Shown here piece by piece: positions 1 to 6,945 of a stretch of 32,095 bases of DNA. Below the pieces are notes generated by a model that was not told the origin of the DNA, ran no database searches, and saw nothing but the letters and a program-made list of their open reading frames with translations. Source of the stretch: Acidobacteriota bacterium (GTDB taxonomy: Bacteria > Acidobacteriota > Terriglobia > Bryobacterales > Bryobacteraceae); NCBI GenBank assembly GCA_025354525.1, contig JANXMS010000224.1:1-32095 (forward strand), in the 5' to 3' direction. The translations under genes were made by a program, and so were the position numbers. Position 1 is the first letter of the stretch. The number at the start of each line of letters is the position of its first letter.

Positions 1-545
1 AACTCGGCTTCGTTCCGCAAAAGCCCAACCCCGCGACCCGGGCATCACCGGCTTCGTTCCGCGGAACCCCGCTTCCCCCGAACCGTAGTTCGCTCTTTGA
101 CGACCCAACCGCAAAACCGGCGACGAAACCCCGGCTCGCAAATTCGGCTTCGTTCCGCAGAACCCCGCTTCCTCCGAACCGTAGTTCGCTCTTTGACAAC
201 CCAACCGCGAAACCGGCCACGAAACCCCGGCTCGCCAACTCGGCTTCGTTCCGCAAAAGCCCAACCCCGCGACCCGGGCATCACCGGCTTCGTTCCGCAG
301 AACCCCGCTTCCCCCGAACCGTAGTTCGCCCTTTGACAACCCAACCGCGAAACCGGCCACAAAACCCCGGCTCACAAATTCGGCTTCGTTCCGCAGAACC
401 CCGCTTCCCCCGAACCGTAGTTCGCTCTTTGACAACCCAACCGCGAAACCGGCGACGAAACCCCGGCTCACAAACTCGGCTTCGTTCCGCAAACCGGTCG
501 TCTCCGGACCGGAGTCTGCTGAACGATTGCCCAACCGCCAAACCG
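1..545. repeat. Higher-order tandem repeat array (96-bp and 44-bp subunits in a 236-bp super-repeat), truncated by the window edge
   Basis: GGCTTCGTTCCGC recurs at 6, 50, 146, 242, 286, 382 and 478, giving spacings 44, 96, 96, 44, 96, 96. CGAACCGTAGTTCG recurs near 79, 175, 315 and 411. The array degenerates after about 490. Confidence 0.93.
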
Positions 546-6807: not shown

Positions 6808-6945
6808 GCGCGGGCGGGTCACCGGGGCCGGAGGGGAAAGAGGCTCGGGAACGGAGCCGCTGGGGGCGCGGGCGGGTCGCCGGGGCCGGAGGGGACAGCT
6901 GCTCGGGAGCGGAGGCGCTCGGGCGCGGGCGGGTCACCGAGGCGG
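6808..6945. repeat. GC-rich ~57-bp tandem repeat (about 2.4 copies)
   Basis: GCGCGGGCGGGTC(A/G)CCG(G/A)GGC at 6808, 6866 and 6923, with intervening (G)CTCGGGA(A/G)CGGAG blocks. Confidence 0.8.

Follow-up and report, generated by a model that had tools for sequence, protein, structure and literature searches.

BoxA elements are recognized as RNA by NusB and ribosomal protein S10 in the bacteria in which they have been studied, and that work has centered on rRNA leaders, lambdoid phages, CRISPR leaders, and a few 5′ UTRs. They usually lie upstream of what they control, which counts against the reading of a boxA in a 3′ tail that we favor below. Outside rRNA, boxA acts upstream of CRISPR arrays (PMC7862264). 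At E. coli suhB, Nus factors promote Rho termination (PMC5725501), and the sign of any boxA effect in a 3′ tail could therefore go either way. We found no published report of boxA placed in a 3′ tail of the kind described here.

The window that we analyzed is the entire contig C18 (32,095 bp) of a draft genome of 7.3 Mb in 633 contigs, and it opens with a tandem array. From its sequence, the array is very probably the tandemly duplicated, untranslated 3′ tail of a copy of a multicopy gene, to which we give the working name STGP after its motif STGPRTPEGK..HGL. The best explanation overall, with a probability of roughly 0.55, is that the array is an amplified 3′ control region carrying NusB/S10-type boxA sites on a C-rich untranslated transcript.

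TRF reports a repeat of period 236 at positions 1–493, with 2.1 copies, 95% matches, and no indels. Anchor motifs start at 1, 45, 141, 237, 281, 377, and 473, and the spacings of 44, 96, 96, 44, 96, and 96 that the original prediction had read from the sequence are thus real. The features of the array and its right flank are as follows.

1–493, + strand: tandem array, 2.1 copies of a 236-bp composite unit (44+96+96), from TRF, anchors, and unit comparison
1–44, + strand: first copy of the short 44-bp unit, lacking boxA; the second copy, at 237–280, is identical
45–140, + strand: 96-bp unit 1, read as a copy of the STGP-gene 3′ tail from anchors, tail-model match, and unit comparison
92–103, + strand: boxA-like site GCTCTTTGACGA, one mismatch
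141–236, + strand: 96-bp unit 2, same evidence as unit 1
188–199, + strand: boxA-like site GCTCTTTGACAA, exact
281–376, + strand: 96-bp unit 3, same evidence as unit 1
328–339, + strand: boxA-like site GCCCTTTGACAA, one mismatch
377–472, + strand: 96-bp unit 4, same evidence as unit 1
424–435, + strand: boxA-like site GCTCTTTGACAA, exact
473 to about 552, + strand: decayed last unit, like the short unit of contig C132 (35/39)
576–1079, − strand: right flank, DUF2809 gene, convergent with the array

There are 11 differences between the two 236-mers (95% identity) and none between the two 44-mers. Among the 96-mers, there are 7 differences between units 1 and 3, 4 between 2 and 4, 10 between 1 and 2, and 7 between 3 and 4. 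These differences lend moderate support to the proposal that the array grew as a composite unit, but 2.1 copies is one duplication and not a long array. Since base 1 of the window is the first base of the contig, the left edge of the array is an assembly break. Contig C132 breaks off within this derived tail as well, its last unit agreeing with window unit 2 at 61 of 63 positions and its short unit with the decayed last unit of the window at 35 of 39. On C132 there is also an STGP gene, oriented as a join would require. Joining the contigs on this likeness, we consider C132 to be probably the left neighbor of C18 and to hold the STGP coding part of the array. A second tandem repeat of the window lies at 6808–6943 (58-bp unit, 2.4 copies by TRF).

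The array is crossed by open reading frames, frame +3 being open over 3–554 and one minus-strand frame over 1–657, and the statement that no frame crosses the composite repeat was literally wrong. In each, the register changes from one repeat to the next, and when the sequence is shuffled with its composition kept, a frame stays open throughout in about 6% of cases. As had been suggested, the frames therefore remain probable by-products. Nor did the array turn out to lie within a long repetitive coding sequence, the case that the original prediction had set against itself: elsewhere, the unit begins directly after a stop codon.

What is the repeat unit? Comparison of window positions 1–545 with the whole genome gave matches on eight other contigs. 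At C25, C132, C272, C175, C451, C512, C5, and C194, the repeat motif comes after the stop codon of an STGP gene, whose product has the motif NRRNAMKSTGPRTPEGKAxSSQNRLAHGLCSS, or of the C-terminal part of such a gene. There are 35 matches to the STGP protein in this genome, and congeners share both the STGP subfamily and the tail. The tail is about 100 bp long and consists of the anchor GGCTTCG(A/T)(A/T)(T/C)CG, a block ACCCCGCCGCCTTCGAACCG, and then the boxA-like GHTCTTTGAMAA 47–49 nt after the stop codon. A sequence model built from the tail (R1) gave 26 matches in this genome; nine members of the genus carry 4–26 matches each, and two further genomes have one weak match apiece. Among 150 genomes of the order, nothing outside the genus was found at E≤1e-4. 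STGP coding sequence lies upstream of 17 of 20 matches examined; none was detectable at two, and one was cut by a contig edge. Some tail copies are decayed. In a search of 396 genomes of the phylum, the anchor TTGGCTTCGWWTCGCAAAA was found in the window's own genome only. The search of this genome and its relatives that had been proposed for the repeat thus showed it to be the 3′ tail that follows the genes of a dispersed family. Within a single clade of one Acidobacteriota genus, STGP has multiplied together with its fixed tail of roughly 100 bp. The proteins gave nothing above cut-off against Pfam, NCBIfam, PHROGs, or PADLOC, and a literature search gave no match for STGPRT and, for the anchor sequences, only an unrelated Coxiella paper.

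The 12-mer in the tail closely resembles a boxA. We collected 42 distinct full-length paralogs by the STGP motif, with the tail not required. The pattern G[ACT]TCTTTGA[CA]AA is exact in 28 of the 42 and has one mismatch in 1 more, and 26 of these 29 boxes sit 47–49 nt past the stop codon. The 13 paralogs without a box are the more distant ones plus L033, which has kept the C-terminal signature and lost the tail. A separate alignment (A1) was gathered by requiring the box, so that its constancy in A1 carries no weight; the evidence lies in the counts for the 42 paralogs and for the 31 tails described below. Because the window's own draft genome has no 16S, we read the rRNA boxA in relatives. 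One such box lies about 100–250 nt upstream of 16S in the rRNA leader of each of five relatives, for instance GATCTTTGACAA in congener G016 and GTTCTTTGACAA in congener G003; the STGP box has the same sequence as rRNA boxA in related species. Its fixed positions are 94–100% identical. Only two positions are loose, and these coincide with the two loose ones of the published gamma-proteobacterial consensus GYTCTTTAANA (PMC5725501). The box is conserved above its surroundings, with the exception of the neighboring block ACCCCGCCGCCTTCGAACCG, which matches the box in conservation and counts against a reading centered on boxA. The window holds seven box matches at one mismatch or fewer, versus 0.63 expected, and four of them are in the array, in register. 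Of the three roles first offered for the repeat, a protein-binding array comes closest, since the conserved element is of the boxA type, with NusB/S10 as the putative ligand. Another conserved block, CCGGTTCACCCGAAGTGTG, occurs about 70 nt after the stop codon, past boxA, in L070, L077, L079, and others, and is repeated within L077.

The STGP family looks phage-derived because relatives adjoin genes for terminase large subunits. Proteins with the STGP motif are encoded on 22 viral contigs, and in both of those tested (L195 and L197), PHROGs identified the next gene as a terminase large subunit. Three distant chromosomal paralogs (L041, L046, and L050) directly precede Terminase_6N genes and are probably prophage remnants. 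The boxA-tailed subfamily stands alone at the loci read, with no adjoining terminase gene. The tail pattern was not found in the viral contigs, and a search of phage records for STGP returned none. An AF2 model of the protein is all-helical (pLDDT 81, pTM 0.56), and fold searches with it gave no significant structural match. A hairpin, usually terminator-like, directly precedes the ribosome site, with a folding energy below −15 kcal/mol in 36 of 41 paralogs. It lies about 15–60 nt before the STGP start (L002, L003, L024, L055–L085, and others) and is flanked by A and T runs (GAAAAGCCCGCTGCGCC..GGCCAGCGGGCTTTTCC); its stem varies in sequence and pairing is kept. Farther upstream, about 100–170 nt before the start, there is a conserved AT-rich stretch like TTGACATTTATATTTC..TTGTTTTCAA, possibly a promoter or binding site. 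A broader proposal, which we put forward as doubtful, is that a gene of phage-packaging type now exists as a multicopy chromosomal unit that controls transcription at both of its ends, through a terminator-like hairpin before its ribosome site and an rRNA-type boxA after its stop codon, in a tail prone to tandem growth, and that it has borrowed the host's ribosomal antitermination machinery with more boxes than an rRNA operon has.

These features also suit an alternative that we judge rather unlikely, in which leader hairpin, STGP, and tail form a small mobile or selfish unit. The tail would then be the end of this unit, the boxA look-alike a DNA recognition or end sequence, and the array an amplified end. 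The copies are dispersed and numerous with conserved leader and tail, the family is phage-linked, and decayed copies exist. Moreover, the copy beside the DUF2809 gene is absent from G006 and G012, where that gene faces a DUF1501-type gene and neither the array nor an STGP copy is found, so that the window's lineage either gained this copy or underwent a rearrangement of the region. A search for the DUF1501-type gene in G000 returned only distant paralogs, and we therefore draw no insertion junction. However, the transposase, terminal inverted repeats, and target duplications of such a unit would all have to be posited, and copies in G000, G006, and G012 adjoin the same gene in different species, which indicates that movement is infrequent. 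It also leaves unexplained why the 12-mer matches the rRNA boxA down to its loose positions. The end of the DUF2809 gene is present twice (578–708 and 731–877), with a degenerate duplicate, 75–89% identical in pieces, lying between the array and the gene.

Why has the tail been multiplied? Long-unit arrays were detected by TRF at 6 of 45 tail loci, with units of 96/236 bp in the window, 116 in C175, 155 in C5, 241 in C25, 127 in G009, and 152 in G006. Some of these units, as in C25, take in C-terminal codons of the gene. The anchor GGCTTCGAAYCG occurs in the GFEPQ codons and again in the tail, which may have supplied short homology for duplication. The idea of a recombination-prone spacer thus holds in part, insofar as the tail is tandemly multiplied at several loci with differing unit lengths. 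Neutral duplication of a repeat-prone 3′ region, with the boxA likeness a mark of shared descent and of no role, would account for the short repeated anchors, the variation of units among loci, and the mismatch in half of the array's boxA sites. Yet conservation is higher in the tail than in the coding end before it. Across the first 60 columns of 31 tails, mean identity to the consensus is 82%, versus 67, 68, and 62% at the three codon positions of the coding end, and the proteins are only about 40–70% identical. Together with the position-by-position match to rRNA boxA, this makes a wholly neutral origin improbable, although the extra tail copies in the window may themselves be neutral.

A structured non-coding RNA, the first of the roles originally offered, would draw on the local palindrome CGAACCGTAGTTCG, the CGAAC-CGTA-GTTCG element ascribed to each 96-bp subunit and indeed present in all four; TTTGACAACC accompanies it in three, and the first 96-mer has TTTGACGACC instead. 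The palindrome CGAAC/GTTCG is private to the window array and is not conserved in other copies of the unit. Folding z-scores were near 0 for five of six sequences (the sixth gave −1.5), RNAalifold over 32 copies proposed three pairs with no compensatory change or covariation, and an Rfam scan gave no match. Neither a stable fold with covariation nor an Rfam match, by which a structured RNA family would be recognized, was therefore found, and we regard an array of structured RNAs as very improbable.

How might an amplified 3′ control region work? In favor of it, RNA from the array would be C-rich and G-poor (42% C, 21% G), and no terminator-like hairpin was seen within the array. The C-over-G bias is nevertheless unexceptional, being reached by 12% of 545-nt strand windows on the contig. 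Past the STGP stop codon, this untranslated RNA would be exposed to Rho. BoxA would bring the rRNA antitermination factors NusB/S10 onto the transcript, and these factors would govern whether polymerase continues past the gene. Repetition of the unit would provide more boxA sites, and its tandem growth would be ordinary duplication between the short anchors that the C-terminal codons share with the tail. We put this Nus mechanism, of which transcription, Nus binding, and the effect on Rho are all inferred, at slightly under even odds.

If this reading is correct, a conserved post-stop boxA, sometimes in tandem, in a multicopy, phage-related family would widen the reach of Nus factors to 3′ ends and perhaps to selfish genes. 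How does the locus compare with known systems? It resembles phage small terminase genes in that STGP homologues precede terminase large subunits, both in viral contigs and at three chromosomal paralogs, but the boxA-tailed subfamily stands alone and STGP matches no known small terminase in sequence or fold. As upstream of CRISPR arrays (PMC7862264), boxA would be on untranslated RNA outside rRNA, whereas the STGP box is inside a repeat unit and behind a gene, with no CRISPR repeats or spacers. The array itself was considered as a CRISPR array and rejected, as its 44- and 96-mers are contiguous without unique spacers. Known boxA elements attached to protein-coding genes are likewise gene-linked, but they are 5′ of the gene, whereas the box here is 47–49 nt after the stop codon. 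Finally, unlike the NusB/NusE antitermination element of rRNA leaders, the STGP box is in a 3′ tail after a stop codon, in many dispersed and sometimes tandem copies with no rRNA nearby, and yet it shares with that element an identical 12-nt core and the same loose positions.
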